IMG/VR virus record: IMGVR_UViG_3300036851_000411
Location: 1-64,000 of that record
Direction: 5' to 3' (one strand)
Origin: a virus
Length of the DNA stretch: 64,000 bases
Under the pieces are notes generated by a model. It was not told where the DNA came from. It did no database searches and saw only the letters and a program-made list of their open reading frames with translations. How positions within the stretch are numbered: position 1 is the stretch's first letter; each line of letters begins with the position of its first letter. This document shows, one piece after another, positions 3,597 to 62,597 of the stretch. The position numbers were made by a program, and so were the translations under genes.

Positions 3597-4089
3597 CGGT
3601 GCCGTCGTTGGGGCGGCCGGCGCTTCCGAGATTCGGTTCTACCGCGCAAGCGACCAGCCGTACGGCGCGTTCTCGAATCTCTTGCGTTGCCAGATGGTGT
3701 TCGAGGACCGGGCGTTCCCGACCGCCGAACACGCTTACCAGTTCGGCAAGGCGGCGAAGCACAACGTTCGCGAGTGGCTCATGTCGGCGCCGTCGCCATC
3801 GCTCCTCGCGGTCACGGCGCACAACCTCCTGCCGTGGGACATCGTCCCCAACTGGACGCGCATCAAGGTCGACCGCATGCGCCGCGTGCTCCACGCGAAG
3901 TTCACTCAGCACGAGGATCTCCGCGCCCTGCTGATCGGCACCGGGAGCGCCCGCATCGTCGAGTGCGCCACGGTCAACAACGCCGTCAACCGGTTCTGGG
4001 GCGAGGTGAACGGGAAGGGCGAGAACACGCTCGGCGTACTCCTCATGGAGCTGCGGGCCGAGATGGCGACGGAGGCGACCAATGCCTAA
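3589..4089 (+). CDS. NADAR (YbiA-like) domain protein
   Basis: A 166-residue single-domain protein of the NADAR family. Visible marks are the FYRASDQPYGAFSN block near residue 16, FPTAEHAYQ near 46, and a C-terminal FWGEVNGKGENTLG block. Known NADAR proteins cleave N-glycosidic bonds of ADP-ribose derivatives; some remove ADP-ribose from DNA and act as antitoxins to DarT-type enzymes. A phage copy could reverse host ADP-ribosylation of phage DNA, or act on NAD pathway products; this is inference. Its start is in ATGCCTAACG, 8 nt inside the previous gene. Confidence 0.85.
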   Translation: MPNGAVVGAAGASEIRFYRASDQPYGAFSNLLRCQMVFEDRAFPTAEHAYQFGKAAKHNVREWLMSAPSPSLLAVTAHNLLPWDIVPNWTRIKVDRMRRVLHAKFTQHEDLRALLIGTGSARIVECATVNNAVNRFWGEVNGKGENTLGVLLMELRAEMATEATNA

Positions 4090-4726
4090 GCCGGCGCCTA
4101 ACGGCTTCTCGGTTTTGGCCGCGGATCCGCCGTGGTTCTACGCGCACTCGCGGTCCACCTCGCGCAAGATCGACACGCACTACCCGACAATGCGCACCGC
4201 GGACATCGCCGCGCTCGACGTGGCCGCGCTCTGCGATCCCGCCGGCGCCGTCTGCTACCTCTGGGTACCAGCACCCAAGCTGTTCGAAGGGATGCTGGTC
4301 CTCGCGGCGTGGGGCTTCGCGTACAAGACGCATCGCGTGTGGGACAAAATGCAGATCGGCATGGGCTACTGGACGCGTGGGAAGCATGAGGACCTGCTGA
4401 TCGGTACCACCGGGCGGAAGTCACCGCCCGCACCGGCCAACCGCCCGCCGTCTCTCCTGCACGAGGCGCGGTCCAAGGTCCACTCCCGGAAGCCGACGCT
4501 CGCACGCCAGCAGATCGAAGCGGCGCATCCACACGAAGAACGCCTCGAGCTGTTCGCGCGGGAGACGCACCCGGGGTGGACCGCGTGGGGACACGGCGTC
4601 GAGAGCGCCGTGTCCATCGGCACGCGTGCCCGCTCGACGATGCTCCCGCTCGTCAACCGCATCCAACACGACATCGCCCGGCAGCTGCTCGTGCCGATGG
4701 GCGAACCTATGGAGGGCGAGGAATAG
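4082..4726 (+). CDS. MT-A70 family DNA N6-adenine methyltransferase
   Basis: A 214-residue methyltransferase of the MT-A70 class. The catalytic DPPW is at residues 15-18, close to the N-terminus as usual, with a LWVPAPKL strand and an ERLELFARE block further on. It should transfer a methyl group from SAM to N6 of adenine. In phages such solitary enzymes usually protect DNA from host restriction; no restriction gene is adjacent. The start lies in ATGCCTAA, 8 nt inside the NADAR gene, so the two are probably translated together. Confidence 0.9.
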   Translation: MPKPAPNGFSVLAADPPWFYAHSRSTSRKIDTHYPTMRTADIAALDVAALCDPAGAVCYLWVPAPKLFEGMLVLAAWGFAYKTHRVWDKMQIGMGYWTRGKHEDLLIGTTGRKSPPAPANRPPSLLHEARSKVHSRKPTLARQQIEAAHPHEERLELFARETHPGWTAWGHGVESAVSIGTRARSTMLPLVNRIQHDIARQLLVPMGEPMEGEE

Positions 4727-5959: not shown

Positions 5960-6164
5960 GACTCTCCTCGCGCGCATCGTGGCTGACGCCGATCGCGCCC
6001 GAGGACCGAAGCAACATGTGTGCGTCGTCGTTGTGACCGAGGTGCCCGACGGGATGCAGCTCAACAGCGCGCACACGGTGGGATGGACGGGCGACACGTG
6101 GGCGATGATTCTCGCCCGCGCCGCGCACGGCGTGCCGGGACAGCGCGGGGGTGCCCGTGGCTGA
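5949..6164 (+). CDS. Small hypothetical protein
   Basis: A 71-residue unknown protein starting at GTG 5949, overlapping the previous gene by 11 nt. It has a strong beta strand (HVCVVVVTEV). The C-terminal Gly/Arg-rich tail overlaps the next gene. Confidence 0.55.
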   Translation: MDAETLLARIVADADRARGPKQHVCVVVVTEVPDGMQLNSAHTVGWTGDTWAMILARAAHGVPGQRGGARG

Positions 6165-7041
6165 GCACACCGGAATCGAATGGTGCGACAAGACGTTCAA
6201 CATCGCGTGGGGCTGCGAGAAGCACTCGCCGGGCTGCAAGAATTGCTACGCCGAGCGCGACTCGACGCGCTACGGACACAAGGTGTTCGGACCCGCGAAG
6301 ACGACCGAACGCCGGACCTTCGGCGATGGCCACTGGGCGGAGCCGCTCAAGTGGAACCGCGACGCGATGGTCACCGGCATCCGGTTGCGTGTGTTCTGCT
6401 CGAGCATGGCCGACTGGGCCGAAGATCACCCGACGATCGCGGCCCAGCTCCCGCGGATGTGGGCGCTTATCCGCGCAACGCCGTGGCTCGACTGGCTCCT
6501 GCTCACGAAGCGCATCGAGCGCGTGTCGCAGCTCCTGCCCGACGACTGGGGCGCGGGCTACGCCAACGTGTGGCTCGGAACGTCCGTCGAGAACCAACAC
6601 TACGCCGACAAGCGGATCCCGCACCTCATCGCCATCCCGGCGGCGATTCGGTTTCTGTCGTGCGAGCCGCTGCTCGGACCGGTCGATCTCAAGCCATGGC
6701 TCCGGAAGGTCCGCGAGGACCTACTGATGACAGACGGCCAGTACGATGAGGCGAAGCACGAGGCGAACAACGCCACGAAGATCTTCGCCCATCCGGATGC
6801 GTGGGCGATCCACTGGGTGATCGATGGCGGGGAGTCCGGCTTCACCGCGCGGCCGGCGGAACTCGACTGGTACCGCCAGCATCGCGACCAGTGCGACCAC
6901 TACGGCGTGCCGTATCTGCTCAAGCAGCTCGGCGGTCGTGGCGTGACGAAGGAACAGGTGCGCGGCGGGCCGTATGCGCTGCTCGACGGGAAGCTGCACC
7001 GCCAGTGGCCGAAGCCGCATCCGGAGGCGCTCCATGCCTAA
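6151..7041 (+). CDS. Phage Gp37/Gp68 family (three-Cys motif) protein
   Basis: A 296-residue protein matching the phage Gp37/Gp68 (DUF5131) family. Marks are the N-terminal GIEWCDKTFN block, a CX6CX2C cluster at about residues 22-32 (GC...GCKNCYAE), the SMADW, LLLTKR and GTSVEN blocks, FLSCEPLLGP, and IDGGESG. The cysteine arrangement recalls radical-SAM-like or metal-binding proteins, but the reaction is not known. GTG at 6151 or 6157 may be the start. It ends in an ATGCCTAA junction. Confidence 0.88.
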   Translation: MPVAEHTGIEWCDKTFNIAWGCEKHSPGCKNCYAERDSTRYGHKVFGPAKTTERRTFGDGHWAEPLKWNRDAMVTGIRLRVFCSSMADWAEDHPTIAAQLPRMWALIRATPWLDWLLLTKRIERVSQLLPDDWGAGYANVWLGTSVENQHYADKRIPHLIAIPAAIRFLSCEPLLGPVDLKPWLRKVREDLLMTDGQYDEAKHEANNATKIFAHPDAWAIHWVIDGGESGFTARPAELDWYRQHRDQCDHYGVPYLLKQLGGRGVTKEQVRGGPYALLDGKLHRQWPKPHPEALHA

Positions 7042-7624
7042 GAAAAAGCTGGAGGCTGTGGCCACCTCGCGCGGGCTTGAGCTGGTCGAGGCACTCCGTG
7101 CACTTCGGCGGGATGCGAAGTACCCGCCCGACGTTGAGTTCCACGGCAACTGGACTGCGTGGCGGAGCGGCGCTTCGTGTTTCCTCGGTGGTGTGTTCCT
7201 CACGAACATCTATCGCCGTCAGGATTGCGTCGACGGTTGGGATGCCGGGTTCGCGTGGGCCGAACGCGAGTGGGCGAAGCGCGTCGCGCCGATCTTGGCG
7301 GCGATCGAGCAGAACGAGCGGGCCATGGTGCCGGCAATGCCGACCGAGAAGGCGCTCGCGATCATGGCGCTCTACAGCGCCCACGTGCTCGCCAGTTTCA
7401 CCGGTGGTGATTCACCACCGGCCCTTGCCACGTATTCGCTTCGTGAGATCGTCGAGGCGAAAGCCATCGTCGAGGCGTTGAACGCTGAAGAGTCCAAGAA
7501 TGGTTATCGGACCATCTATGTCGTCCCCGACGATGAGATGATCGCGGTGTTGTACGTCGCATGCCGCATCGAGAATGGCGCCGCGCTGGTGGCGATCGAA
7601 ACGATGGCGGTAGCGCATGCCTAA
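7034..7624 (+). CDS. Hypothetical protein
   Basis: A 196-residue unknown protein starting in ATGCCTAA, 8 nt inside the previous gene, and ending in another such junction. The N-terminal half contains aromatic and Cys residues (FHGNWTAWRSGASCF); the C-terminal half is helical and acidic. No motif was recognised. Confidence 0.7.
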   Translation: MPKKKLEAVATSRGLELVEALRALRRDAKYPPDVEFHGNWTAWRSGASCFLGGVFLTNIYRRQDCVDGWDAGFAWAEREWAKRVAPILAAIEQNERAMVPAMPTEKALAIMALYSAHVLASFTGGDSPPALATYSLREIVEAKAIVEALNAEESKNGYRTIYVVPDDEMIAVLYVACRIENGAALVAIETMAVAHA

Positions 7625-9536
7625 CGTACCAGCTACCCGGGCGTGGCTCGACCCGGACGAGATCATCGTGGACAGCTTCGCCGGCGGCGGCGGCGCCTCG
7701 CAAGGGATCACCGAGGCGCTTGGCCGCGCGCCCGACATCGCCATCAACCACGACGCGGAAGCGATCGCGCTCCACAAGGCGAACCATCCGACGACGGAAC
7801 ACTTCCCCGAGAACGTCTGGAAAGTCGACCCGGTGACCGTCTGTCGCGGCCGACGCGTCGGGCTGATGTGGCTCTCGCCGGACTGCAAGCACTTCTCGAA
7901 AGCGAAGGGCGGCAAGCCGGTTGAGAAGAAAGTCCGCGGCCTCGCGTGGGTCGCGGTGCGATGGGCAAAGGCGGTGCGGCCGAGGGTGATCGTCCTCGAG
8001 AACGTCGAGGAATTCCAACACTGGGGCCCGCTCTTCCGGTCGGACCACCCGAACAGGAAGCTGCGCGACCGTCCAGACCCTGAGCGGAAGGCGCTCACGT
8101 TCCGCCGGTTCGTGGGCCGGCTGCGTGCGTTAGGCTACGTCGTCGAGTGGCGGGAGCTCCGTGCCTGCGACTACGGTGCGCCGACGACGCGCAAGCGCTT
8201 GTTCCTCGTCGCGCGCTGTGACGGCCAGCCGATCCACTGGCCCGAAGCGACGCACGGGAAGCACCGCCTACTGCCCTGGCGCACGGCGGCCGAGTGCATC
8301 GACTGGTCGATCCCGTGTCCGTCGATCTTCCTCACGCCCGTCGAGGCGAAGTCGTTGGGGGTCAGGCGTCCGCTCGCCGATGCGACGCTCCGTCGAATAG
8401 CCCGTGGCGTACAGCGCTATGTTATCGACGCGGCGGATCCGTTCATCGTCAGCTACTACGGTGCGAAGCGAGATGGTGACGACCGCACCGCGCCCCTCGA
8501 TGGGCCATTGCCGACGCAGACGACGGAGAACCGCTTCGCGGTGGTCGATCCGTTCATTGTGCCGGTGAGTCACAGCGGCGATGATCGCACGCACTCGGTC
8601 CACGATCCACTCCGCACCATCACCGGCGGGTCACGCGGGACGCACGCGATCGTCCAGCCGTTCATCGCTGGCGTTGGTGGAAGGATGGGGCAGTCCGCCG
8701 AGCGCGGCGTCGACCGTCCGTACCAGACGATCACCGCGAAGGCCGATGCCGCGTTGGTCGTCCCGACGCTCATTCAAACGAGCTACGGCGAAGACAAGAA
8801 GCGGAATGGCGGAATGGGACAGCCGCCTCGCGTGCTCGATCTTGGGGCACCGCTAGGTACGGTCGTCGCGGGCGGGATCAAGCATTCGCTCGTGTCGGCG
8901 TTCCTCGCCAAGCACTACGGCGGGCATGAGACGCCGGGGTCGTCGCTCGCGCAGCCGATCGACACGGTGACCGGCACCGATCATCACGCAGTCGTGAGCG
9001 CGCACATCGCGAAGCACTACGGCGGTCGCGTGGGATCGTCGATGGACGAGCCGCTGCACACGGTGACAGCCGACAGCGTGCATCACTCGGTCGTCGCGTC
9101 CTCGCTCGTGAAGCTCAAGGGCACGGCGAAGGACGGCCAACAGCTCTCGCTGCCGCTCCATACCGTGCAGGCGGGCGGGAACCACTACGGCGAGGTGCGG
9201 GCCTTCCTCATGAAGTATCACGCCACCGGCGGGCAGTGGAACGCGCTCAGCGCGCCGATGCCAACCGCCGTCGCGAAGGACAGCATCGCGCTCGTGACGG
9301 TGGCCGGCGCCCAGTACGTCATCGCTGACATCGGCATGCGGATGCTCGCGCCGCGGGAGCTCTACCACGCGCAGGGCTTCCCGTCGACCTATCGCATTGA
9401 CATCGAGTTCAACGGCAAGCCGCTGAGCAAGACGGCCCAGGTGAAGATGTGCGGCAATTCTGTCTGTCCTCCGCTCGCGGCGGCCATCGTCCGCGCGAAC
9501 TTCGCCACCACGGACCGGCAGGAGGTGGCAGCGTGA
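7617..9536 (+). CDS. DNA (cytosine-5) methyltransferase with repeated recognition region
   Basis: A 639-residue C5 methyltransferase. Motif I is DSFAGGGGASQG (about residues 19-30), motif IV is a variant SPDCKHFSKAK in place of the usual PCQ block, motif VI is VLENVEEF, and the C-terminal motifs are ELYHAQGFP and a GNSVCPP block. Between them, about residues 275-560 hold at least seven copies of a unit of about 35 residues with the pattern F-I/L-x-KHYGG, then DxPLxTVT, then HHAVV, which must form or extend the target recognition region. That is unusual for a C5 enzyme and may mean multi-site specificity. Likely role: protection from restriction. Confidence 0.92.
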   Translation: MPNVPATRAWLDPDEIIVDSFAGGGGASQGITEALGRAPDIAINHDAEAIALHKANHPTTEHFPENVWKVDPVTVCRGRRVGLMWLSPDCKHFSKAKGGKPVEKKVRGLAWVAVRWAKAVRPRVIVLENVEEFQHWGPLFRSDHPNRKLRDRPDPERKALTFRRFVGRLRALGYVVEWRELRACDYGAPTTRKRLFLVARCDGQPIHWPEATHGKHRLLPWRTAAECIDWSIPCPSIFLTPVEAKSLGVRRPLADATLRRIARGVQRYVIDAADPFIVSYYGAKRDGDDRTAPLDGPLPTQTTENRFAVVDPFIVPVSHSGDDRTHSVHDPLRTITGGSRGTHAIVQPFIAGVGGRMGQSAERGVDRPYQTITAKADAALVVPTLIQTSYGEDKKRNGGMGQPPRVLDLGAPLGTVVAGGIKHSLVSAFLAKHYGGHETPGSSLAQPIDTVTGTDHHAVVSAHIAKHYGGRVGSSMDEPLHTVTADSVHHSVVASSLVKLKGTAKDGQQLSLPLHTVQAGGNHYGEVRAFLMKYHATGGQWNALSAPMPTAVAKDSIALVTVAGAQYVIADIGMRMLAPRELYHAQGFPSTYRIDIEFNGKPLSKTAQVKMCGNSVCPPLAAAIVRANFATTDRQEVAA

Positions 9537-12802: not shown

Positions 12803-13671
12803 CGGTGCTCCGTCGCGGCCCGTGCTTCGGTACCACGGCGGCAAGTGGCGTCTCGCGCCCTGGCTTCTCGGCGTGTTCCCGCCGCACCACGTGTACACGG
12901 AATCGTTCGGGGGGGGCAAGCGTGTTGCTCCGTAAACCGCGCTCCTATGCCGAGGTCTACAACGATCTCGACGACGAGATCGTGAACCTGTTCCGGGTGC
13001 TCCGAGACGACGGTGCCGCGCTCCTGCGCGCAGTGGAGCTCACGCCATACGCTCGCACCGAGTTTCACGGCAGCTTCCGTCCGACGAGCGACCCGATCGA
13101 GCAGGCGCGTCGCACCGTGGCGCGGAGCTTCATGGGGTTCGGCGGGAACCTCACGCGAGCGAATAGAGACCAGTCGCCACAACGCACCGGGTTCCGCAAC
13201 TACAGCTCGACGAACCGGCGAGCGACGCCGGCGAGTGACTGGCGCAACTGGCCTTCCGGGCTGGTGGAGATCATCGACCGCCTGCGAGGCGTGATCGTCG
13301 AGCACCGCGACGCGATGGTGGTTCTGCTCGCGCACGATGGGCCGAACACGCTCCACTACGTCGACCCGCCCTATGTCCATGTGACGCGTGGGTATGATGC
13401 CGGCGGATCGCATCGCGGCTACCGCCACGAGATGACCGATGATGGCCATCGCGCGCTCGCTGCCGTGCTCCGCGGGCTCGAGGGGATGGTCGTGCTGTCT
13501 GGCTACCCCTGCGATCTCTATGACCGCGAGCTCTATCCGGACTGGACACGCTACGAACGACCGCACGTTGCCGACGGCGCGCGCCCGCGCACCGAGGTCG
13601 TCTGGCTCAACCCCGCGTGCGTCGCTGCGCTCCATTGCAGCCGCGCGCAATTGGAGATCCCGCATGCCTAA
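12792..13671 (+). pseudogene. D12-class (Dam-like) adenine methyltransferase, split by a G8 run
   Basis: The first frame (ATG 12792, codons up to a stop at about 12937) gives LRYHGGKWRLAPWLL and YTESFGGG, the N-terminus of a D12 adenine methyltransferase. It then runs out of frame in eight G residues (12909-12916). The second frame continues as ASVLLRKPRSYAEVYNDL through the catalytic DPPY to 13671. Seven or ten Gs would restore one protein of about 290 residues (FGGAS or the canonical FGGGAS). Causes could be a sequencing error, phase variation, ribosomal slippage or true decay. Annotated as broken as written. Confidence 0.85.
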
Positions 13672-14377
13672 CACCACCAGCACGCCACTGACGCGGGCCG
13701 AGCTCGCGCGCTGGCTCCGCTCAGAGGTCGAAGGGCAAACCTACCTCGCCGCCGACTTCGCCATCAACCAAGGCGGAGAGGCGGCGAAGCTCTGCGTCAT
13801 CCGCGCCGACCGACTGAACGCCGCCGCGGCGCTGCTTGAAGGGATGGCGCCCTCCTTCGACGATCGCATGCGGGCCATCAGCGAACGTGTGGCTGCCGCG
13901 GCGCAGGCCCACTCCCACTCTCGCGTCGACTTCATTCACCCCGAGTGGCTCACGATTGTGCGCGACCGCGTGGCCGGCGGCGCGTTGCATCACCAGGTGG
14001 TGGAACTCGCCCCGCACGAGTGCATCGCGCTCTTCGCGATGGTGGACACGGCGACCGCCAACATGCTCGGCCTCCTCACGCCGGCCGGCCTCGAGTCGTC
14101 GCTCCAGCGGGAAGTCCTCCGCTCGCTCGGCTACGGGTATGAGGTCACGGTATCGACGGCGCTCCGGTGGCTGCGCCATGACCGCGACGAGCTGCGCGCG
14201 GCGGATGAGGTCCTCGATGAACTCGACGTGCCCGACTCGTGGGAGGATGAGCGTGACCCCGAGCGGCCGAGAGGCGGTCACCTCACGCTGAGCCAGCGCA
14301 TTCGCATGCTCCAGGAGCGGTACGAGCGCGAGTTCGCGTCTCTCCGTGCGGAGAACGAGGCGCCCGCACCCGCATGA
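13664..14377 (+). CDS. Hypothetical protein
   Basis: A 237-residue mainly helical protein starting in ATGCCTAAC, 8 nt inside the methyltransferase gene. It has a central HHQVVELAPHECIALF segment and an acidic C-terminal coiled-coil-like tail. No family recognised. Confidence 0.7.
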   Translation: MPNTTSTPLTRAELARWLRSEVEGQTYLAADFAINQGGEAAKLCVIRADRLNAAAALLEGMAPSFDDRMRAISERVAAAAQAHSHSRVDFIHPEWLTIVRDRVAGGALHHQVVELAPHECIALFAMVDTATANMLGLLTPAGLESSLQREVLRSLGYGYEVTVSTALRWLRHDRDELRAADEVLDELDVPDSWEDERDPERPRGGHLTLSQRIRMLQERYEREFASLRAENEAPAPA

Positions 14378-14913
14378 GCGCCGCTGCTGCTGCGACCAAC
14401 GCCATCGGTTGGCGTGCCTCGACGACGCCGGCACAGAGCGTTGAGTGGGGCACACCCCCAGCGCTCTACCTGGCGCTCGATCGCGAATTCGGGTTCACGA
14501 TCGACATCGCGGCCGACCCGGCGATGGCGAAGCACGTTCGCTTCGTCGCGAAGGAGACCGATGCACTAACGCTATCGTGGGCGGGCGAGCGCGTATTCGC
14601 GAACCCGCCGTATGGGCGCGGGCTCGATCGCTGGATGCGCAAGGGCTTCACCGAGGCGAGCGAGCACGGCGCGCTGGTCGTCATGCTCGTCCCCGCGCGC
14701 ACTGGTAACGCGTGGTTTCACGACTACGCCTTGCCCCATGCGGAGGTGCGCTTCATCCGCGGGCGTCTGAGCTACCAACGCGACGGGCAACCGACCGGCC
14801 GCCAGCATCGATGCCCGTTCGATAGCTGCGTCGTGATCTTCCGCCCGCACAGCCGCGGCGCGGGGCGGATCATCCAGCAACACGTCATGCCGTTCCTGAG
14901 CCGGGTCGTCTGA
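14374..14913 (+). CDS. Phage DNA N6-adenine methyltransferase
   Basis: A 179-residue protein of the phage N6A (Dam) family. Marks are EWGTPPALYLALDREFGFTID near residue 24, then AADP, and the catalytic NPPY at residues 77-80. It is compact, as usual in phages. It should methylate adenine, adding to the MT-A70, C5 and D12 enzymes. It starts on ATGA after the previous gene. Confidence 0.92.
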   Translation: MSAAAAATNAIGWRASTTPAQSVEWGTPPALYLALDREFGFTIDIAADPAMAKHVRFVAKETDALTLSWAGERVFANPPYGRGLDRWMRKGFTEASEHGALVVMLVPARTGNAWFHDYALPHAEVRFIRGRLSYQRDGQPTGRQHRCPFDSCVVIFRPHSRGAGRIIQQHVMPFLSRVV

Positions 14914-20997: not shown

Positions 20998-21039
20998 CAA
21001 CGGTGGGTGGCGGCCGAATCATTCAGTCGTCACTCGGAA

Positions 21040-21133
21040 GGAGCGTGGGGGATTCGAACCCTCGGCCCGGTGCGCTAACACCGGACGCCTCATTGATAGT
21101 GAGGTGCTTTCAGCCAGACTCAGCCAACGCTCC
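21040..21133 (-). tRNA. Class II (serine-like) tRNA with unusual AUC anticodon loop
   Basis: On the - strand the acceptor GGAGCGT pairs with ACGCTCC, the D arm is serine-like, and the anticodon stem CCTCA/TGAGG closes the loop CTATCAA. The long variable arm CCGGTG/CACCGG is that of tRNA-Ser/Leu, and the T loop is TTCGAAT with one mismatch in the stem. The loop gives anticodon AUC, which would read Asp GAU rather than Ser. The discriminator appears to be T and CCA is not encoded. It may be a recoding tRNA, a decoy or a decayed gene. Confidence 0.7.
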
Positions 21134-26500: not shown

Positions 26501-28114
26501 ATGCTTACCGCCGCCGAGATCGAAGGGCTCCTCGAGCGGGTCCGGTCCGGCACCCTGACGCTCGATCAGCAACGCGAGCTCTCGTTCCTCCTCTGTGATG
26601 TGCCGCCGGCGCCGCCGGCCATCCCGTTCACGGACTTCGTTGCCGAGGCGAAGCCCGACTATCGGTGGTGGGAGTGGAACACCCGACTCGCCGCGCGGCT
26701 GCAGGACGTGGCAGATGGGAAGATCCGTCGCCTCATGGTGTTCTGCCCGCCGCGCTATGGAAAGTCCGAGCTCACATCGAAGCTGTTCCCGGCCTACTAC
26801 CAGTACCGCTTCCCAATACGGCGCGTCGGGCTCAGTGCGTACGGCGAGGACCGCGCGCACGAGTATCTGAGCCACGCGCAGGAATACTATCTCCGCGTCG
26901 GCGGCAAGCTCCGCTCGTTGCGCGATGCGGGGCTCCGTCGTGGGTTCGAGGTCGAAGGCCGAGGCGGCATGTGGGCCGCGGGTCTCAATGGCGCGTTGCC
27001 TGGCCTCGGCTTCCACCTTGGCATTATCGACGATCCGCTGAAGAACATGGCGGAGGCGGCCAGTAAGGTCATCCAGTCGCGGAACATCAAGTGGTACAAC
27101 ACGACGTACTACAGCCGCCGGGAACCGAACGACGCGATCATTCTCATCACCACGCGGTGGCACCCGCGGGACCTCGCCGGGCAGATCCTCGAGCAGGAGC
27201 GCATCAACAAGGACGACGAGGGCGCGCTCGAAAACTGGCACATCGTCATCTACGACGAGACCCGCGACGAGAAGGAGCCCTACGACCTGCCGGACAATTG
27301 CTCGCTGGAGCCCGACTGGCGTAAGCACGGGGAGCTGCTGTGCCCCGAGCGATGGCCGGAGTCGGAGGTCAAGAAGAACCGCGCCAAGGGGACGTACAGC
27401 TATAGCACGGTCTACCAGCAGCGCCCGAAGACTTCGGAGGGCACGCGGTTCAAGGCTGAGTGGTTCCCCACGGTCGACGCCATGCCGGTGGATGTCACGG
27501 CGCGCGTGAGGTATTGGGATCTGGCGGGCACCGACGAGCCGAGCGACGAAGACTCGGATCCCGACTGGACGGTCGGCTTCCGCGTGTCACGCGGGCGGCA
27601 GGACCAGATCATCTATTTCGAGAAGATGAAGCGGTTCCGGAAGAAACCCGGCGGCCGCAATGCCACCATGCGTGAGACAGCGGAGGCCGACGCGCGGGAA
27701 TTCGGATCGGAGGAGCAACCCAATCGGCACGCGGTCGTGCAGTGGTGGGAAGGCGAGTCGGGGGTCGATGGCGGTGATCGCAATAAGGCGCTCGGCGCGG
27801 CGCTCGCCGGCCACATCTGCAAATTCGATCGACCCATCGCGAGTAAGGAAATGCGTCACGAGGTCCTCGCGGGGCAGGCGGAGGTCGGGAATGTGCGGCT
27901 AGTGGAGCCCAAGCGCGATGCGCATGGCAACCTGCTCGATGGGGAAGAGGACTGGATTCCAACGTTCCTCGACGAGATGACGAGCGTGCCGTTCGGGGCG
28001 CACGACGACATCGCGGACGCGGCGAGCGATGGCACGGCCAAAGTGCTCGACGCGCCCGAGCCCATTCTCGCCGAGATCGTGACGGTGGAGCTCAAGAGTC
28101 CCTTCGCGCTCTAG
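26501..28114 (+). CDS. Terminase large subunit
   Basis: A 537-residue packaging motor. The ATPase has Walker A CPPRYGKSE (about 82-90), Walker B GIIDDP (174-179), and the coupling block ILITTRWHPRDLAG. The nuclease domain begins near residue 338 with RYWDLAGTDEPSDEDSD, giving the acidic metal site, and continues with YFEKMKRF and a C-terminal HDDIADAASDG. Length and order are typical of the Terminase_6 type. It cleaves and translocates phage DNA into proheads at the portal. Confidence 0.95.
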   Translation: MLTAAEIEGLLERVRSGTLTLDQQRELSFLLCDVPPAPPAIPFTDFVAEAKPDYRWWEWNTRLAARLQDVADGKIRRLMVFCPPRYGKSELTSKLFPAYYQYRFPIRRVGLSAYGEDRAHEYLSHAQEYYLRVGGKLRSLRDAGLRRGFEVEGRGGMWAAGLNGALPGLGFHLGIIDDPLKNMAEAASKVIQSRNIKWYNTTYYSRREPNDAIILITTRWHPRDLAGQILEQERINKDDEGALENWHIVIYDETRDEKEPYDLPDNCSLEPDWRKHGELLCPERWPESEVKKNRAKGTYSYSTVYQQRPKTSEGTRFKAEWFPTVDAMPVDVTARVRYWDLAGTDEPSDEDSDPDWTVGFRVSRGRQDQIIYFEKMKRFRKKPGGRNATMRETAEADAREFGSEEQPNRHAVVQWWEGESGVDGGDRNKALGAALAGHICKFDRPIASKEMRHEVLAGQAEVGNVRLVEPKRDAHGNLLDGEEDWIPTFLDEMTSVPFGAHDDIADAASDGTAKVLDAPEPILAEIVTVELKSPFAL

Positions 28115-28198: not shown

Positions 28199-29653
28199 GT
28201 GCATCGGATGTCCAAACGGCGGCGCGGCGGCACTGCCCTCGACGCACTCGCCGGGTCGCCCGGCCCATCCGGTGGTCGGTCGAGCCCCTATGTCGAGCTG
28301 GGCTCCACCGGCCTCTCCAACGTCGGCGGGTTCGTTCGCGCGGATTTCCTCCCGCAGCTCGTCGGCCGGCAGGGGATCCTCGCTTATCAGGAGATGGAGA
28401 ACAACGATGCGCTGATCGGCGGCATCCTCTACGCCATGCAGATGCTGATCCGCTCGGGCGAGTGGACGATCGAGCCCAACGAGCTGGCGACGAAAGCGGC
28501 CGGACCGGGCGGGAAGATCAGCCCCGCGGCGCAGAACGCGGTCGACTTCATGCGCGATGCGTTGTTCGAAAGCATGGATCACCCGTTCGATGAGCTGATC
28601 ACCGACGCGCTCACGATGCTGCCCTACGGGTTCGCGCCCTGCGAGTCCGTGCTCAAGAAGCTTCCGGCGTCCAACCTCGGGCCCGCGCGCATCGGCTTCA
28701 AGTCAGTCCGGCTCCGCGCCCAGGATACGCTCTACAAGTGGGAGTTCGATCCGGAGTCCGGTGACCTGTTAGGCATGTGGCAACAGGACTTCCAGAACCC
28801 GGTCGCCTACATCCCGTACGACCGGTTGGCGTTGTTCCGCACCAACTCGAGCCGTGGCAATCCCGAGGGACGCTCGGTTCTCCGCAACTCGTACAAGTAT
28901 TACAAGCGCAAAGGGGCGATCGAGGAGGCCGAAGGTCGCGCCGCACTCCGATCGGCTGGTCTCGTGGTGATGCGGGTGCCGTGGAGCATCATGAACCCGA
29001 CCGCCGGCCAGATCGAGCGAAACATCTTCGCGCAGCTCAAGACCGCGCTCGCCAGCATCGCCGAGGACCGGCAGGGCGCGGTCATCCTGCCGAGTGATCC
29101 GTACGAGGGTCAGCAGGGCAAGCGTGGCGGCTATCAGTACGACATCGACTACAAAGTCGCCGATGGCCGGCGATCGGCCGACATGAGCACGCTGGTCGAG
29201 CGCATGGACAAGCGCATCGCCGGATCCGTGCTCGCCGACTTTATCCTCATCGGGCAGCAGGCTGCCGGTTCGTACGCCATGCACGGCGACAAGACCGAGA
29301 TGTTCACGAACGCGTTAGGTGGGTACAACCGCGTCATCGAGGCGGAGCTCAACCGCCGGACGATCCGACGATGGTGGCACCTCAACGGCCTGCCGGACGA
29401 GCTGCGTCCGCGACTCAAGCCGAAGAAGCTGTCGAAAGAGCAGCTCGAGAAGATCGGCGCGTTCGTCGGGCAACTGGCGGCTGCCGGCATGCTCCCGCCG
29501 GACAAGGCGTTGTCGAACAGACTGCTGGGGATGGCCGAGCTGCCACCGTCCGAGGTCCCGCTTCCGCCGCCGAGGAGCGCGACGCCCCCACCGGGGCGGC
29601 CTAACGCGCTCACAGGGACGGATCCCGACGACGAGGAGCACGCTGATGCCTGA
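28199..29653 (+). CDS. Portal protein, DUF935 (Mu gp29-like)
   Basis: A 484-residue portal. Marks are ENNDALIGGILYAMQMLI, GEWTIEP, DALTMLPYGFAPCESVLKK, a GNPEGRSVLRNSYKYYKRK block and AGSYAMHGDKTEMF near the C-terminus. It forms the dodecameric ring at one vertex for DNA entry and tail joining. The Pro-rich end is probably disordered. It ends in a variant junction ATGCCTGA. Mu-like portals usually travel with a Mu F-like protein, which is found two genes on. Confidence 0.92.
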   Translation: MHRMSKRRRGGTALDALAGSPGPSGGRSSPYVELGSTGLSNVGGFVRADFLPQLVGRQGILAYQEMENNDALIGGILYAMQMLIRSGEWTIEPNELATKAAGPGGKISPAAQNAVDFMRDALFESMDHPFDELITDALTMLPYGFAPCESVLKKLPASNLGPARIGFKSVRLRAQDTLYKWEFDPESGDLLGMWQQDFQNPVAYIPYDRLALFRTNSSRGNPEGRSVLRNSYKYYKRKGAIEEAEGRAALRSAGLVVMRVPWSIMNPTAGQIERNIFAQLKTALASIAEDRQGAVILPSDPYEGQQGKRGGYQYDIDYKVADGRRSADMSTLVERMDKRIAGSVLADFILIGQQAAGSYAMHGDKTEMFTNALGGYNRVIEAELNRRTIRRWWHLNGLPDELRPRLKPKKLSKEQLEKIGAFVGQLAAAGMLPPDKALSNRLLGMAELPPSEVPLPPPRSATPPPGRPNALTGTDPDDEEHADA

Positions 29654-30062: not shown

Positions 30063-32675
30063 GTGGCGACGCTCTTCGCGGCGCTCCGGGCCGAGGCGCA
30101 GTCGGCAGTCGCCAAGGGCGCGGCGATGTACGTCGGCCGCCGGCTGCTGAACGAGCGCGCGCTCCGCACCTGGTGGGTGGCGAACAGAAAGGCGGGTGAG
30201 CCTGACCTCGATCCGAACCCGCACATCACCGTTGCCTACTCGCGCACCGCGGTGCATCTGGCGCCCGACGATGACCTGGTCGTCGTGCCGCCGGCCGCCA
30301 TGATCGGCTTTCGCGTGTTAGGCACGGATCGCGCGGTCGTCCTGGAGATCGATGGCGCGCTCGCCCTGCGCGTCATGCACAGCGGCGATCCTGCCGGTCA
30401 CGCTGGCAACGACGGCGAGGCCGGCGTCCTCAATGCGCGCTTTGCCCAGTATCGCGAGGCGGGCGCGACGTGGGACCATGGGTCGTATACGCCGCATCTG
30501 ACGCTGTTCTACCTGCCCGCTGGCTACGACTCGACCGACTGGCGCGACGGCCCCGACCAGTGGCCGCCGTTGCCGGACTTCCCGCTGGTGTTCGGCCGGG
30601 AGCTGCGCGCGAACGGCGACGACGATGCGTTCGACCAGCCGGGCGCAGAGGCGGGCGTCGAGAAGCTGCTGCGCATGCTGTTCGGCGGTGAGCAGATCGC
30701 GAAGGCCACGACGGTCGCCGCGCCGATCCTTCGCGCGACATGGCTGGCGTGGCCTGATGCCGAGTCTCTCGCGGACACGTCGGACGAGTGGCTGTACCAC
30801 GTCACCAGCGCGGCCAACGCCGACGCGATCCTGACTGAGGGCTTCGCGCCCGACGATTGTGAGCGGACCATCACCGGTGGTGTGGACGAGGCGCAGTCGG
30901 TCGGGCGCTCGTTCTTCACCGACCGGGGCGGCGTCGCCTACTGGGCCGAGCGCATCGGGACTGCGTTAGGCGGCGTTCCGTTGGCCGTGGTTGCCATTCC
31001 GAAGCGAAGCGTCCCGCACGCCGAGCACGACGCGTTAGGCACGCAGCAGGCCGGCGGGCACGCCGCGTTTTGCGTTGAGGGTCCGATTCTGCCGCGTGGC
31101 GTCGGGCGGTCGACGTGGGGCGAGCTGGTTGACCGTGTTGTTGGCAAGCGCGAGACGAAGGTCCCAAGCCCGCCGCTCCGGCGCGGGTTGCAATGGCTCA
31201 CAGCCGCCGGCCAGCGGCGCGCGCAGTCCGCCGCCGACCGCTACGCCGCAGATCTCCGCGCCGGGCGCGCCACGGTGTTCGATCGCGTTCTGCGCGACGA
31301 GCGACGGGATCGCCAGCTGCAGCGCATGCGGCGCGAGGACGAGCCGCCGCCGCCGACGCTCATCGACACACTCGCGGCGACGTACCGCCGACGCCTCGAG
31401 CGGCATTACCACAACGTCGAGCACCAGTACGCCGACGTAGTGGAAGAGGCACGCCGGGACCGCGCGGAGTGGGATGGGATGATGGAGTCCTATGTCCGCG
31501 ACGGTGGCAGTCGCTACCTCGTGACGAAAGAGTGGGTGACCGCCGAGGATGAGCGGGTGCGTCACGCCCACGCCGCGCTCCACGGCCGCACCATTCCGTA
31601 CGACGCGCTCTTTCAGGGTCAGCACGGACCGGTCTGGGGGACGCCCGACGGACTCGGATGTCGGTGCCGACTTCGCGTTGCGTTCCCGACAATCGACGGC
31701 GACGCGCTCGAGGAGTCAGCCGAGAAGTCGTTGACACGCTCCGTCGGTGCCTGGCTCGTGGCCAAATTCCGCCCCGCGCAACACCGCGTGCCGGGCGGTC
31801 TGCCGCGTGGTGGTCGGTGGGCAGGCTCGGCGTCGGCGCGAGCGCACCAGACGCTCGCCGTGTTGCCGTCGGCGGACGATGCGGGGCATTACGTGGCGGT
31901 GCCATTCCCGCTGCATCAGCGGTTCGAGCATGAGCGGGCGTATGGACGTGCGATTTCGATGCGTGCCCGCCCGACGGTCGAGTCGGTGCCGCTGTCGGAG
32001 CTCCACGCCACGCAAGCACTCGTGCACCGCGCTGGCGTCGCACGGTGGATCGACGGCAGGGACGAGGCCGATGCGCAACCCGCGCGCCTGATGCGTGATC
32101 CGAGCGGACGCGTGCTCATCCAGCAGGGCCATCATGAGGCGACCGCAGCGCGGCTCCGAGGGGACACGCACCTCGACGCCGAGGTCTACGATCTCGCGTC
32201 CGAGGCGCTCTGGAAGGAATGGGCACCGACCGACGTACCTGAGCACATCCAGAAAGCGCTCGACGCCAGACTCGGGATTTCGGATATCGAAAAGTCGGAA
32301 GACGAGCAACGGCTCGTTACCGGATGGGCGCTCGTCTGCACGGAGCCCGACGGCACGCCGCTGGTCGATCGACAGAATGACATCGTCGATATCCGCGAGC
32401 TCGAGCAGGCCGCGCACCGTTTCATGGTGGAGTATGCCGACGGTGGGATTGTGCATCTGCGCGACGCGGACGGCGAGCCCATTGTCGCTGGCCGGATCGT
32501 CGAGTCCATGGTGGTGACGCCCGAGCTCAAGGCGGCGTTAGGCCTGCCGGGGGACACGCCACTCGGCTGGCTCGTGACCTTCCATGTCACGAGTGACGAG
32601 GTGTGGGCGCGCGTGAAAGCGGGCGAGCTCCGCATGTTTTCGATCGGCGGGAAGGCGGACCGCGTACCGGTTTGA
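30063..32675 (+). CDS. Multidomain virion protein: 2H phosphoesterase, ART-like, Mu F-like, ParB-like, XkdF-like
   Basis: An 870-residue fusion. GTG 30063 is chosen because the ATG at 29985 lies inside the previous gene. Domains in order: a 2H phosphoesterase (about 45-150) with HIT54-56 and HLT145-147; an ADP-ribosyltransferase/KptA-like domain (241-345) opening with LYHVTSAANADAILTEGF; a Mu F-like minor head domain (440-540) with RVRHAHAALHGRT and GCRCRLR; a ParB/sulfiredoxin-like domain (638-715) with QQGHHEATAARL; and an XkdF-like prohead protease or scaffold segment (745-870) with FSIGGKA. It should be built into the head; the two N-terminal domains could be counter-defence enzymes carried in the virion. 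Domain calls are by pattern; the ART call is the weakest. Confidence 0.82.
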   Translation: MATLFAALRAEAQSAVAKGAAMYVGRRLLNERALRTWWVANRKAGEPDLDPNPHITVAYSRTAVHLAPDDDLVVVPPAAMIGFRVLGTDRAVVLEIDGALALRVMHSGDPAGHAGNDGEAGVLNARFAQYREAGATWDHGSYTPHLTLFYLPAGYDSTDWRDGPDQWPPLPDFPLVFGRELRANGDDDAFDQPGAEAGVEKLLRMLFGGEQIAKATTVAAPILRATWLAWPDAESLADTSDEWLYHVTSAANADAILTEGFAPDDCERTITGGVDEAQSVGRSFFTDRGGVAYWAERIGTALGGVPLAVVAIPKRSVPHAEHDALGTQQAGGHAAFCVEGPILPRGVGRSTWGELVDRVVGKRETKVPSPPLRRGLQWLTAAGQRRAQSAADRYAADLRAGRATVFDRVLRDERRDRQLQRMRREDEPPPPTLIDTLAATYRRRLERHYHNVEHQYADVVEEARRDRAEWDGMMESYVRDGGSRYLVTKEWVTAEDERVRHAHAALHGRTIPYDALFQGQHGPVWGTPDGLGCRCRLRVAFPTIDGDALEESAEKSLTRSVGAWLVAKFRPAQHRVPGGLPRGGRWAGSASARAHQTLAVLPSADDAGHYVAVPFPLHQRFEHERAYGRAISMRARPTVESVPLSELHATQALVHRAGVARWIDGRDEADAQPARLMRDPSGRVLIQQGHHEATAARLRGDTHLDAEVYDLASEALWKEWAPTDVPEHIQKALDARLGISDIEKSEDEQRLVTGWALVCTEPDGTPLVDRQNDIVDIRELEQAAHRFMVEYADGGIVHLRDADGEPIVAGRIVESMVVTPELKAALGLPGDTPLGWLVTFHVTSDEVWARVKAGELRMFSIGGKADRVPV

Positions 32676-32816: not shown

Positions 32817-33791
32817 ATGCCGAGCGACGCCTCGACTCCGACGTTCCTCCGGCGGCTCCGCCTCCGTGAGGTGTCGCTGGTCCCGCGCGGCGCGAACCAG
32901 CGGGCGGACGTGCTCATCGTCAAATCCGACGCCGACCCCGGTCCCGCCTCCGCGGAGCGCTCCATGAGAAACCCGATCGTGAAGTTCCTCGGTGGCCTCA
33001 AGCACGCGGTCCTCGCCATGGCCACGACCGACGCCCAGAGGGCCGCGGTCGCGAAGGGTTTTGGCGACGCCGAGGCCGCGCTCGCCGAACCGGTCACCGA
33101 TGGTGGCGCCGACAACGGGGATGGGAATGGTGCGGCTGCGGTCGACGTAGCCGCGATCGCCGATGCCGTGGCCGAGAAGATGGCGGCGCGCTGCGCGAAG
33201 GCGGGCTGTGGTGGGATGATCGAGAAGGGCAAGTGCGCCAAGTGCGGCGCCATGACCAAGGCCGACAACTCGGGAGATGCCGCGATGGATCAGGAAGCGA
33301 TCAACAAGGCGATCGGCGACGCGGTCGGCGCGGTCCGGACCGAGTTCACCACGGCGATCACGAAAGCGCAGGCCGACATCACGAAGGCGAACGAGCGCGC
33401 TGACGCCGCCGAGGCCAAGGTCGCCACGCTCGAGAAGGCGCAGAGCGAGCAGACGAACATCGCGAAGGCGCAGGAGCTGCTCGGCGAGCTGCCGGGCGAT
33501 GCCAAGCCGATCGCGAGCCTCCTCGCGAAGGCCAGCCCGGAAGAGCGCGCCGAGTTCGAGAAGATCGCGAAGGCCGGGAACGCCGCGACGCAGAGCGCCC
33601 GCCTGTTCGTGCCCGCCGGCCGCGATGTCGCGATGAGCGGCAGTGCGCTTGCCGAGATCGAGTCGAAGGCCGCCCAGGTGGCCAAGGACCAGAAGATCAC
33701 GAAGGAGCAGGCGTTCGACGTGGTCGTCAAGGCGGATCCGTCGCTCTACACGCGCTACCGCGCGGAGAACGAGATCCGTCCGCAGAGCTGA
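32817..33791 (+). CDS. Capsid scaffold / prohead protein
   Basis: A 324-residue protein. The start RLREVSLVPRGANQRADVL is like the C-terminal part of XkdF/prohead proteases; then come a Gly/Asn/Asp-rich linker, a Cys cluster (CAKAGCGG, CAKCG at about residues 122-143) that may bind zinc, and a long Lys/Ala/Glu coiled coil (170-240) typical of scaffolds. Its place directly before the capsid genes supports a scaffolding role. An internal start for a shorter scaffold product is possible. Confidence 0.75.
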   Translation: MPSDASTPTFLRRLRLREVSLVPRGANQRADVLIVKSDADPGPASAERSMRNPIVKFLGGLKHAVLAMATTDAQRAAVAKGFGDAEAALAEPVTDGGADNGDGNGAAAVDVAAIADAVAEKMAARCAKAGCGGMIEKGKCAKCGAMTKADNSGDAAMDQEAINKAIGDAVGAVRTEFTTAITKAQADITKANERADAAEAKVATLEKAQSEQTNIAKAQELLGELPGDAKPIASLLAKASPEERAEFEKIAKAGNAATQSARLFVPAGRDVAMSGSALAEIESKAAQVAKDQKITKEQAFDVVVKADPSLYTRYRAENEIRPQS

Positions 33792-33867: not shown

Positions 33868-34305
33868 ATGGCAACCGAAGGCGGCAACACCCGATCGACG
33901 CTCGCAGGCGTGGCCGGCGAGGACCTCAGCGCCAAGGCCGGCTACATCGCGAAGATGAATTCGAGCGGTGTCTGGGTGCTCGCCAGCACCGGTGAGATGG
34001 GCTTTCCGATCATCGTCGGCGCGGCCAGCGGTGGCGCCATCACGCTCGCGACCCCGGGCTATGTCGCCTGCGTGGTGGCCGGCGCGGCGATCGCCACGCC
34101 GTTCACGACGCTCAAGGCCGACTCGGCGGGCAAGGTGCAGGCCGCCGTCAAGGGCCGCACCGATACGTCCGATGCGGGCGCCGCGGTGGATCCGCTTCTC
34201 GGCTCCAACGTGCTCGGTTTCAATCTCACGGCCGCCGCGGGTGACCTCTCGGTCATCGAGATGCTGGTCTGTCCCGTCGGCGCTGTGCCCACGACTGCCG
34301 CCTAA
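33868..34305 (+). CDS. Capsid decoration protein (DUF2190-like)
   Basis: A 145-residue Gly/Ala/Val-rich beta protein just before the major capsid gene, with GYIAKMNSSGVWVLAS and GYVACVVAGAAI strands, fitting a head-stabilising decoration protein. The stop lies in GCCTAACGGC. Confidence 0.72.
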   Translation: MATEGGNTRSTLAGVAGEDLSAKAGYIAKMNSSGVWVLASTGEMGFPIIVGAASGGAITLATPGYVACVVAGAAIATPFTTLKADSAGKVQAAVKGRTDTSDAGAAVDPLLGSNVLGFNLTAAAGDLSVIEMLVCPVGAVPTTAA

Positions 34306-34367: not shown

Positions 34368-35366
34368 ATGCCGTTCGCCCCGACCCGCGGTCAGATCCAC
34401 GTCGACCGCCTGCTGACGAACATCACGATCGGCTTCTTGCAGGATGCGCGAGCGTTCGTCGCACCGCGCGTCTTCCAGCGCGTTCCTGTCCTCAAGCAGA
34501 GCGACCGGTACGCCGTGTATGACCGCGGCTTCTTCTTCCGGAACCAGATGAAGAAGCGGGCGCCGGGCACCGAAGCGGCACGTGTCCACTACGCGATCGA
34601 CAACACGCCGACGTACTACGCCGACGTGTGGGCGCTCGCCAAGGACATCGCTGACCAGGACCGCGCCAACTACGACCAGCCGCTGCTCGGCCCGGACCGT
34701 GAGGCGTCGCTGTTCCTCGGTCAGCAGGCGCTCCTGAACCAGGAGACGGAGTTCGTCACCAACTGGTTCAAGACGGGCGTCTGGACGACCGAATACACCG
34801 GCGTCGCGTCGAGCCCGAGTGGCCCGCAGTTCCTCCAGTGGAACGACGCGGCGTCGAATCCGATCGAGGACATCCGTGCGCGGAAGCGCGCGGCCCGCGA
34901 GCTCACCGGGTACGAACTCAACATCCTCACGCTCGGCCGCGCGGTCTACGACGCGCTGCTCGATCACCCCGACATCATCGACCGCATCAAGTACGGCCAG
35001 ACGCCTGGCCAGCCGGCGATGGCGAACGAGCAGATCCTCGCGCAGCTGTTCGAAGTCGACGAGGTGAATGTCATGAACGGCATTCAGACGACTTCGAACG
35101 AAGGCGCGACCAACACGTTCGCCTTCATCGGCGGCAAGCACGCGATGCTCACGTACCGCCCACCGGCCCCGGGGCTCTTCGTCCCAGCAGCTGGCTACAC
35201 GTTCGTGTGGACGGGCTACCAGGGCAGCGCGGGCGAGCTCGGCACGGAAGTCAGCCAGTACCGGATGCCGGAGCTCAAGAGCGACCGCACCGAGATCGAG
35301 GCCGCGTACGACCAGAAGCTCGTGTCGGCCGACCTCGGCGTGTTCTTCGCCAGCGCCGTCGCGTAA
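34368..35366 (+). CDS. Major capsid protein
   Basis: A 332-residue protein that fits an HK97-fold major capsid family without a long N-terminal delta domain: ITIGFLQDARAFVAPRVF, a VLKQSDRYAVYDRGFFFR strand, REASLFLGQQALLNQETEF, NILTLGRAVYDALLDHPDI, and a closing FVWTGYQGSAGELG with YRMPELKSDRTEIE. The ATG follows a CAGGAG ribosome site. It follows decoration and scaffold genes as expected. Confidence 0.9.
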   Translation: MPFAPTRGQIHVDRLLTNITIGFLQDARAFVAPRVFQRVPVLKQSDRYAVYDRGFFFRNQMKKRAPGTEAARVHYAIDNTPTYYADVWALAKDIADQDRANYDQPLLGPDREASLFLGQQALLNQETEFVTNWFKTGVWTTEYTGVASSPSGPQFLQWNDAASNPIEDIRARKRAARELTGYELNILTLGRAVYDALLDHPDIIDRIKYGQTPGQPAMANEQILAQLFEVDEVNVMNGIQTTSNEGATNTFAFIGGKHAMLTYRPPAPGLFVPAAGYTFVWTGYQGSAGELGTEVSQYRMPELKSDRTEIEAAYDQKLVSADLGVFFASAVA

Positions 35367-60999: not shown

Positions 61000-61650
61000 A
61001 TGGAACACCCCGAGACAGTTTCACCGCCGGTGATGCTGTACGCCGGCTCCGACGGAGCGCCGGGCGACAGTGCGAACAAGGGCACATCACCGACGCCCAA
61101 TCTTGTATTCCCAACCAAACCCGAACGGCCAGCGCCGGGCACGGTCTTGCCGTGCGAGAGCTGCAACGGCGGCACGTGGCGCGACCCGTTAGGCGCTGAC
61201 GACGCCCTCTGCGCGCGATGCCAGGGCTCCGGCAGTGTCACCGTTCGGAGCCAGGCGGACCTGACCGCGCTGATGCACGCGTGGGAGGCCGAGGGCGCTG
61301 TGTGGGCGCTCCAGGAGGTCGAGGGCTTCGGTTACCACTACGACGAGCTCAAGGCATACGCCGTGGCTCGCGGGCGGACACTAGCGAAGGCGGCCGAGAG
61401 TCGCGCACGCCAGAAAAAACAGCAGGAACATCAGCGCCTCCAGCAGCTTGCCGAGTCGCTCGATCTCATTCCCGATTCGGAGGCTGACCACGAAGAGCGC
61501 ATGCGCGTGCGCACGGTGTTTCGGGCGCTGGTGATCGACCGGTTCGACCGATTGATCGGTGCCATCGATCGACTCGGCTCGACCATCGCGCACACGAGTG
61601 CCGAGCAGATCGACCAGATGGTGCACGAGAGCCGGAGGAGCGAGCGATGA
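61000..61650 (+). CDS. Hypothetical protein with DnaJ-like zinc pair
   Basis: A 216-residue protein. LPCESCNGG and ALCARCQGSG (about residues 50-78) form a DnaJ-type zinc ribbon; the rest is a long helix with a coiled coil near 135-155. It is ATGA-coupled to the Rad52-like gene, so it may assist recombination or replication. Confidence 0.68.
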   Translation: MEHPETVSPPVMLYAGSDGAPGDSANKGTSPTPNLVFPTKPERPAPGTVLPCESCNGGTWRDPLGADDALCARCQGSGSVTVRSQADLTALMHAWEAEGAVWALQEVEGFGYHYDELKAYAVARGRTLAKAAESRARQKKQQEHQRLQQLAESLDLIPDSEADHEERMRVRTVFRALVIDRFDRLIGAIDRLGSTIAHTSAEQIDQMVHESRRSER

Positions 61651-62597
61651 CCGCCGCCGCGCTCGTCCGCCCCTCTCCGCGCAACGTGGCCGCCATCCTC
61701 GATGCACTCGCCGCGCCGTTCGCGGCCGAGCATGTCGGATGGATGCTGCGCGATGGGAAGCTCGACAACAACGTGCCGAAATCGGTGGCGGTGCCGTTCA
61801 TCGACATCTGCGCCGTGATGGACCGGCTCGACCAGGTGCTCGGACCGGAGAACTGGAAGGACGACTACCGTCCGGTGCCGAATTCCACGACGGGCTTGCT
61901 CTGCGAGCTCTCGATCCGGATCTGGCGTGAGGACGAGGGCTACACGTGGCTCACGAAGGTCGATGGTGCCGACCCGACGGCGATCGAGCGCACGAAAGGG
62001 GGGATTTCGAGCGCGATGAAGCGCGCCGCGGTGCGGTTCGGCATCGGTCGCTATCTGCACCGGCTGCCCAAGATGTACGCGTCGTTCGTGCTCGACCGGA
62101 GGCGACAGGGCCCGGGGAGGTACTTCGGCTATGTCAAGGCGTCGAAGGACGACAAGCGCGGTGTTGGCTTTGCGTGGAACCCGCCGACGTTGCCGTCGTG
62201 GGCACTGCCTAACGGCAGCGGATGGCCGGGGCCGACGCGCACGAGCGAAGGAGACAAAAAGGGAGACACAAAGACTGACCGGACCCGAGGCGGCCAGAGC
62301 AACGCTGCCGCCGCCTCACATACCGCTGGGGCGGCAGGAGTCCCTGCCGGCGGGGTGTCTGAGTCAGGGTCGTCGTCCGAAGGCGCCCCCATCGACCCAT
62401 GCCGCATCGAGCTTCCAAAGCTGATCGGCTTCACCGACCTGCGCGGCGTGCCGTTAGGCAAGATCCCGGTCGCCGATCTCCGACGTATCCACCGGCACGT
62501 CGAGAAGCGGAAGCCGCACTTGGCGGAGAAGGTTGCGCACGTGATCGCTGCGTGCGAACAGGCCCCCGGAGGGCGCATCGATGACCTGCCGTTCTGA
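61647..62597 (+). CDS. Rad52-family single-strand annealing protein
   Basis: A 316-residue protein. The first 150 residues (VPFIDICAVMDRLDQVLGPENW, ELSIRIW, TKGGISSAMKRAAVRFGIGRYLH) are typical of phage Rad52/22 annealing proteins. A Ser/Gly/Pro linker (about 200-250) and a short C-terminal domain (GKIPVADLRRIHRHVEKR) follow, the latter perhaps for contact with a single-strand binding protein. It pairs homologous strands in phage recombination. Confidence 0.9.
   Translation: MTAAALVRPSPRNVAAILDALAAPFAAEHVGWMLRDGKLDNNVPKSVAVPFIDICAVMDRLDQVLGPENWKDDYRPVPNSTTGLLCELSIRIWREDEGYTWLTKVDGADPTAIERTKGGISSAMKRAAVRFGIGRYLHRLPKMYASFVLDRRRQGPGRYFGYVKASKDDKRGVGFAWNPPTLPSWALPNGSGWPGPTRTSEGDKKGDTKTDRTRGGQSNAAAASHTAGAAGVPAGGVSESGSSSEGAPIDPCRIELPKLIGFTDLRGVPLGKIPVADLRRIHRHVEKRKPHLAEKVAHVIAACEQAPGGRIDDLPF

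Follow-up and report, generated by a model that had tools for sequence, protein, structure and literature searches.

An 870-residue phage head-operon protein that joins an Acb1-type 2H phosphoesterase domain to MuF and head-maturation protease domains

Results

The DNA analysed here (the window) is the first 64,000 bases of an 82,133-base virus record, IMG/VR IMGVR_UViG_3300036851_000411. At 30063..32675 on the + strand, it contains a single open-reading frame of 870 codons. The coordinates that an earlier sequence-only reading had assigned to this gene held, the frame running from a GTG start at 30063, 4 bases downstream of the preceding stop, to a stop at 32675, and codon-position GC was coding-like over the full frame from end to end. 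The gene lies in a head operon with the order terminase large subunit (26501..28114, +; phrog_38, 2e-60), Mu-type portal protein (28199..29653, +; PF06074, 6e-23), the 870-residue protein, a scaffold-like protein (32817..33791, +; phrog_3244, 2e-5, and phrog_80, 8e-4) the beginning of which looks like the region found after the protease in other phages, a probable decoration protein (33868..34305), and the major capsid protein (34368..35366, +; phrog_1005, 7e-84). A search of genomes with the terminase returned no host for the phage. Elsewhere, the record carries four DNA/RNA methyltransferase-like genes of the MT-A70, C5-cytosine, D12, and Dam types (window positions 4082-4726, 7617-9536, 12805-13671, and 14374-14913), a DUF5131 protein (6151-7041, 7e-69) and a Rad52-like recombinase (61647-62597, 2e-9). 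ARAGORN also called a tRNA-Asp with anticodon atc at 21039-21133 on the - strand, at 95 bases an unusual length that may indicate a false call.

Five domains had been proposed for the 870-residue protein, and three of these are solid: an Acb1-type 2H phosphoesterase domain, a MuF domain, and an XkdF/S78_2 protease domain, each matched by Pfam above its cut-off and in agreement with a PHROGs search of the whole protein. A ParB-like segment was recovered weakly, and the proposed ADP-ribosyltransferase (ART) segment was not recovered. No close relative of the entire chain was found in the sequence collections searched, and PADLOC, a search for defence systems, returned no match to it.

The N-terminal domain (residues ~20-190; 30120..30632, +) matched the Pfam family Acb1 (PF23474) at 5.2e-11 and 42.9 bits, where the family cut-off is 27 bits. 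An AlphaFold2 (AF2) model of this segment, built with 58 relatives in the alignment, had a pLDDT of ~90, and the best PDB match to the model by Foldseek was the FBB1 Acb1 structure 7T26 (E 8e-7), with Acb1 structures occupying ranks 1-5, LigT placed below them, and the Foldseek viral library also returning Acb1. A PDB search with a profile of the domain and nine relatives recovered FBB1 Acb1 (1e-19) and, with a stronger match still, the C-terminal part of the Pam3 portal (8HDS). The HxT/HxT catalytic tetrad is present as H54/T56 and H145/T147, and in the alignment the window residues Y23, H54, T56, H145, T147, and E180 correspond to Y12, H44, T46, H113, T115, and E141 of T4 Acb1, the residue roles of which have been described, with E141 being the adenine contact (PMC9117128). 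Across 59 aligned head-linked Acb1 domains, each of these six positions is conserved in 56-59 rows, and the four catalytic residues in 59, 59, 59, and 56 rows, at an overall identity of only about 23-36%. Two ligand-stacking positions differ, with W74 replaced by F83 and F107 by H139. A histidine at the F107 position is common (27/59 head-linked rows), while the phenylalanine at the W74 position is found in the window protein only, in a region where the alignment is uncertain, and no counterpart of the lid tryptophan (W147 of the solved enzyme) was identified. Compared with the stand-alone Acb1 enzymes (T4 57B, FBB1; PMC9117128; PDB 7T26/7T27), the window domain therefore shares the 2H fold, the tetrad, and the equivalents of Y12 and E141, but is part of a large head protein, is about 20% identical, and differs at the W74, F107, and lid positions. 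The sequence-only reading had suggested a 2H phosphoesterase and compared it to Acb1; profile, predicted fold, and motifs bear out the first point and extend the second, as the tetrad and the adenine-contact glutamate place the domain in the Acb1 family itself, beyond a generic 2H fold. We conclude that it is an intact predicted cyclic-oligonucleotide nuclease of the Acb1 type. The domain might alternatively process RNA ends, as in tRNA repair together with a KptA-like ART, or be an RNase, rather than act on cyclic-dinucleotide signals. Some 2H domains do process RNA ends and KptA acts on a 2H product (PMC9503650), and an RNase role was proposed for 2H-MuF and 2H-portal fusions in a 2017 survey (PMC5512222). 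Profile and fold, however, both place Acb1 ahead of LigT, the tyrosine and glutamate specific to Acb1 are conserved, and the record contains no KptA match, making this alternative improbable.

The MuF (minor head protein) domain occupies residues 442-537 (31386..31673, +), ends in a CRC motif, and matched PF04233 (Phage_Mu_F) at 3.6e-8, above the cut-off, and the head morphogenesis family phrog_3517 at 2e-13. Together with the position in the head operon, this upholds the Mu F-like assignment made earlier. The XkdF-like end of the protein was likewise recovered as an XkdF/Peptidase_S78_2 head-maturation protease domain (residues 740-867; 32280..32663, +; PF14550, 4.5e-19), in which H798 and S860 are invariant in a 29-row alignment and the AF2 model has a pLDDT of ~90. 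Across all 82,133 bases of the record, the 870-residue ORF alone matches PF04233, and it alone matches PF14550, so the phage probably relies on this one chain for both the MuF and the head-protease functions. The operon, the MuF domain, and the protease domain make a location of the protein in the phage head likely. A linker motif downstream of the MuF domain, FRPAQHRVPGGLPRGGRWA (31767..31823, +), resembles a linker, YRPDQPRGPDGRF, that follows the Acb1 domain in a protein at locus L003, and it is a possible candidate for a processing or hinge site.

The segment named ART/KptA-like in the sequence-only reading (residues ~240-350; 30780..31112, +) has at most a putative ART fold. Pfam searched up to E 10 returned nothing for it, and neither the KptA nor the ART-PolyVal profile matched; searches of phages, plasmids, viral contigs, and genome contigs found no relatives, and pairwise scores against three genuine ARTs equalled those of shuffled sequences. 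Structure prediction gave a low-confidence AF2 model (pLDDT about 30-64) with a strand-helix...helix-strand order only. The motifs YHVT (245-248), AYW (292-294), and VEGP (338-341) would fit an H-Y-E arrangement (H246, Y293, E339), a possible ART triad that we treat as a lead only. Of the two likely counter-defence enzymes suggested for the protein, the second has these residues as its sole backing.

The ParB/Srx-like segment (residues ~629-711; 31947..32195, +) had no direct match in Pfam or to ParB_N, and AF2 and Foldseek yielded an uninformative model. It does align, ungapped and colinearly, with the domain directly before XkdF in a ParB-protease relative at L217, scoring 62 where the best of 2000 shuffles scored 51 (z 7.3), with an E value of 0.0016 for the pair by hhalign, and the L217 domain itself matched ParBc_2 at 0.019, below the cut-off. 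The motif is QGHHEA in the window and DGHHRS in L217, with glutamate replacing the arginine of GHHR. The ParB/Srx superfamily has a conserved active-site arginine (PMC5512222), and if this is the arginine of GHHR, as we take it to be, the usual ParB/Srx catalysis by the window copy is doubtful. The ParB/Srx-like domain proposed earlier is retained as a weakly supported resemblance with glutamate in place of the motif arginine, and a DNA-modifying activity for it is doubtful. The ART-like and ParB-like middle block may be cargo or filler.

On another reading, the additional domains have a structural role or have degenerated, and the protein is a decorated head protein devoid of a counter-defence role. 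This reading could draw on the GHHE motif, on the unproven ART segment, and on the HIS that stands for HxT at the second motif of the Pam3 portal domain. The strict retention of the four catalytic Acb1 residues in the window and in nearly all relatives argues against it, and we consider it decidedly improbable.

A search with the major capsid protein as query identified 80 relatives of 41-59% identity, in which MuF and XkdF are separate genes wherever both were found; a MuF and an S78_2 domain in one ORF occurred in none of the other loci fetched. At L201, where the capsid protein is 50% identical, the same order of terminase, Mu portal, scaffold, decoration, and capsid genes surrounds a 382-residue Acb1-XkdF fusion that lacks the ART, MuF, and ParB segments and is 42% identical to the window protein in XkdF and 29% in Acb1. 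No MuF match was found within the 57 kb of L201, indicating that the basic Acb1-protease fusion does not need MuF docking. Given the same locus and the match at both ends, the window protein is most simply an L201-type fusion with a block of ~500 residues (ART-like, MuF, ParB-like) between its ends, the change presumably having run in that direction. In a tree of Acb1 domains, the window groups with L201 (SH-aLRT 97), a grouping to which we give no weight because both are long branches. The comparison with L201 also bears on whether the ORF is an artefact of a chimeric metagenome contig or a gene-joining error. The chain is known from one metagenomic record with no close relative of its full length found, and its pairing of MuF with S78_2 was seen in no other locus fetched; against this, the 870 codons form one open frame with a steady coding signature, gene order and both ends match L201, and the record has no other MuF or S78_2 match. 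An artefact is therefore extremely improbable.

Further Acb1-protease fusions were found on the IMG/VR contigs L202, L215, L120, and L169, along with Acb1 domains within MuF proteins (L151, L156) and on portals (68 ORFs), counts that come from searches seeded with the 870-residue protein and its capsid protein and are not frequencies. As in the window, Acb1 is N-terminal to the XkdF protease in all five Acb1-S78_2 fusions, L201 included at the same locus, but these chains are 298-566 residues long compared to 870 and have no MuF, ART-like, or ParB-like segment. The portal fusions (Phage_portal_3 + Acb1, for example L158 and L140, and the Pam3 portal, PDB 8HDS) similarly place an Acb1-family domain on a head protein, the partner being the portal instead of the protease and MuF. 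In the solved Pam3 portal, residues 463-619 form a domain of the Acb1 family, matching the profile at 2.6e-43. Two short proteins, DSS3P8 gp129 (L015:3896-4348) and ZHS_4 (L016:2116-2715), were considered as Acb1-protease fusions; they are 150-199 residues long with an Acb1 domain, and because no protease domain was detected in them, they were left out of the count. Their GenBank label, 'prohead protease', is possibly an error spread from fusions.

Discussion

Multidomain head-operon proteins of this general kind were described in 2017 as polyvalent proteins, with 2H, MuF, ART, ParB/Srx, and C-terminal assemblin-like peptidase domains among their parts, and 2H-MuF and 2H-portal fusions were proposed to degrade immune nucleotides (Iyer et al., PMC5512222). 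A 2022 survey repeated the nucleotide-signalling proposal and reported fusions of Nudix domains with MuF, portal, and head protease (PMC9503650). The 870-residue protein has several enzyme domains (two certain, Acb1 and protease, plus MuF) in an operon of packaging genes and resembles this class in its 2H, MuF, and C-terminal assemblin-like peptidase domains. It differs in that its 2H domain is specifically of the Acb1 type and in that MuF and S78_2, the record's only matches to these families, lie in one chain. Its exact domain combination appeared neither in the survey text examined nor in the loci fetched, and the papers examined contained no description of recurring Acb1-head protease fusions, or of MuF, protease, and Acb1 in one chain. 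The earlier remark that no phage protein with this full set had been described is accordingly correct for the exact set, absent from everything searched, and not for the class (PMC5512222; PMC9503650): the class is known, and the arrangement of Acb1, MuF, and protease in one chain is new. MuF polymorphic toxins (Jamet et al. 2017, PMC5576092) offer a second comparison, as they also join enzyme domains to MuF and are thought to be injected. Their toxin is C-terminal to MuF, often with an immunity gene, whereas the window protein has its enzyme at the N-terminus and a protease at the C-terminus.

The sequence shows the domains, key residues, operon, and uniqueness of the chain; from these we infer, with moderate confidence, how it could be packaged, cut, and injected and what its substrate could be. 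In this reading, the chain is a polyvalent head protein with an Acb1-protease fusion at its core, the Acb1 part of which would be packaged, released, and injected and would block CBASS, a bacterial immune system, by destroying its alarm molecules. The MuF and protease domains would bring the chain into the prohead beside the portal, and at prohead maturation, the protease would cleave the linkers within its own polypeptide as well as the scaffold, the product of the gene that follows. Once released, the Acb1 domain would remain in the head, like T4 Alt and the internal proteins, and enter the next host along with the DNA. In that host, or already in the producing cell, it would break down 3'3'-cGAMP and cyclic trinucleotides and thereby keep CBASS effectors switched off. 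In T4, effectors packaged in the head are processed by a protease (PMC9958956; PMC5512222), and T4 Alt and the internal proteins, prohead-core effectors that the gp21 head protease trims and that remain in the head (PMC9958956), serve as our working analogy, although they are products of separate genes rather than one chain and are not homologous as a system. Against delivery, a fragment joined to a protease could be degraded or lost at maturation.

In the main alternative, Acb1 would act late in the producing cell and not at entry, timed with the head genes and with the triggering of CBASS, its presence in the virion being incidental. T4 Acb1 becomes active some 15 min after infection, in step with a late onset of CBASS (PMC9117128), a timing compatible both with injection and with a role in the producing cell. 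RNA transcribed from terminase genes, in the packaging/head region, activates a CBASS cyclase of staphylococci (PMC10686824), and the 870-residue gene lies in the head operon. A stand-alone late gene would nevertheless suffice for such a role without any fusion, and the recurrence of portals, MuF proteins, and the protease as partners points, if indirectly, to a head location that is used; we regard late action of this kind as rather unlikely. If the virion-borne Acb1 of our preferred reading is active, CBASS counter-defence would start ahead of any phage gene expression, and a protease-cut polyprotein would be its delivery route. The protein gives the 2017 prediction of head-packaged 2H domains acting against nucleotide immune signals a specific example that can be tested, in which the enzyme family is named and the active site is intact. 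Fusion of Acb1 to head proteins recurs, in most cases to portals but in others to MuF proteins or the head protease. As a tentative extension, phages may repeatedly make the head-maturation protease, and MuF, a device for loading and releasing an anti-CBASS nuclease, allowing the incoming particle to disarm cyclic-nucleotide immunity; the window protein, with two further effectors in its chain, would be an extreme example.

Several other proteins at the loci fetched carry additional enzyme domains. At L140:3591-6530, a 980-residue protein combines Phage_portal_3, Acb1, and ADPrib_exo_Tox, a clear ADP-ribosyltransferase, and at L055:3828-5441, a 538-residue protein combines ART-PolyVal, a 2H domain of the 2_5_RNA_ligase2 type, and an XkdF protease, indicating that two effectors per head protein, as first suggested for the window protein, are real elsewhere, though unproven in the window protein. 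An XkdF protease is fused to a NUDIX domain at L027:4821-6674, in line with the head-borne Nudix domains reported earlier. Giant ORFs of 2864 and 2702 residues at L099:1179-9770 and L106:1032-9137 carry Acb1 mid-chain, the latter also with SNase and the polyvalent-associated LPD38 domain. A 1267-residue head-protease protein at L213:2608-6408 has a methyltransferase, an ATP-dependent DNA ligase, and a uracil-DNA glycosylase before XkdF and, judged by these domains, looks like a head-borne DNA repair set.
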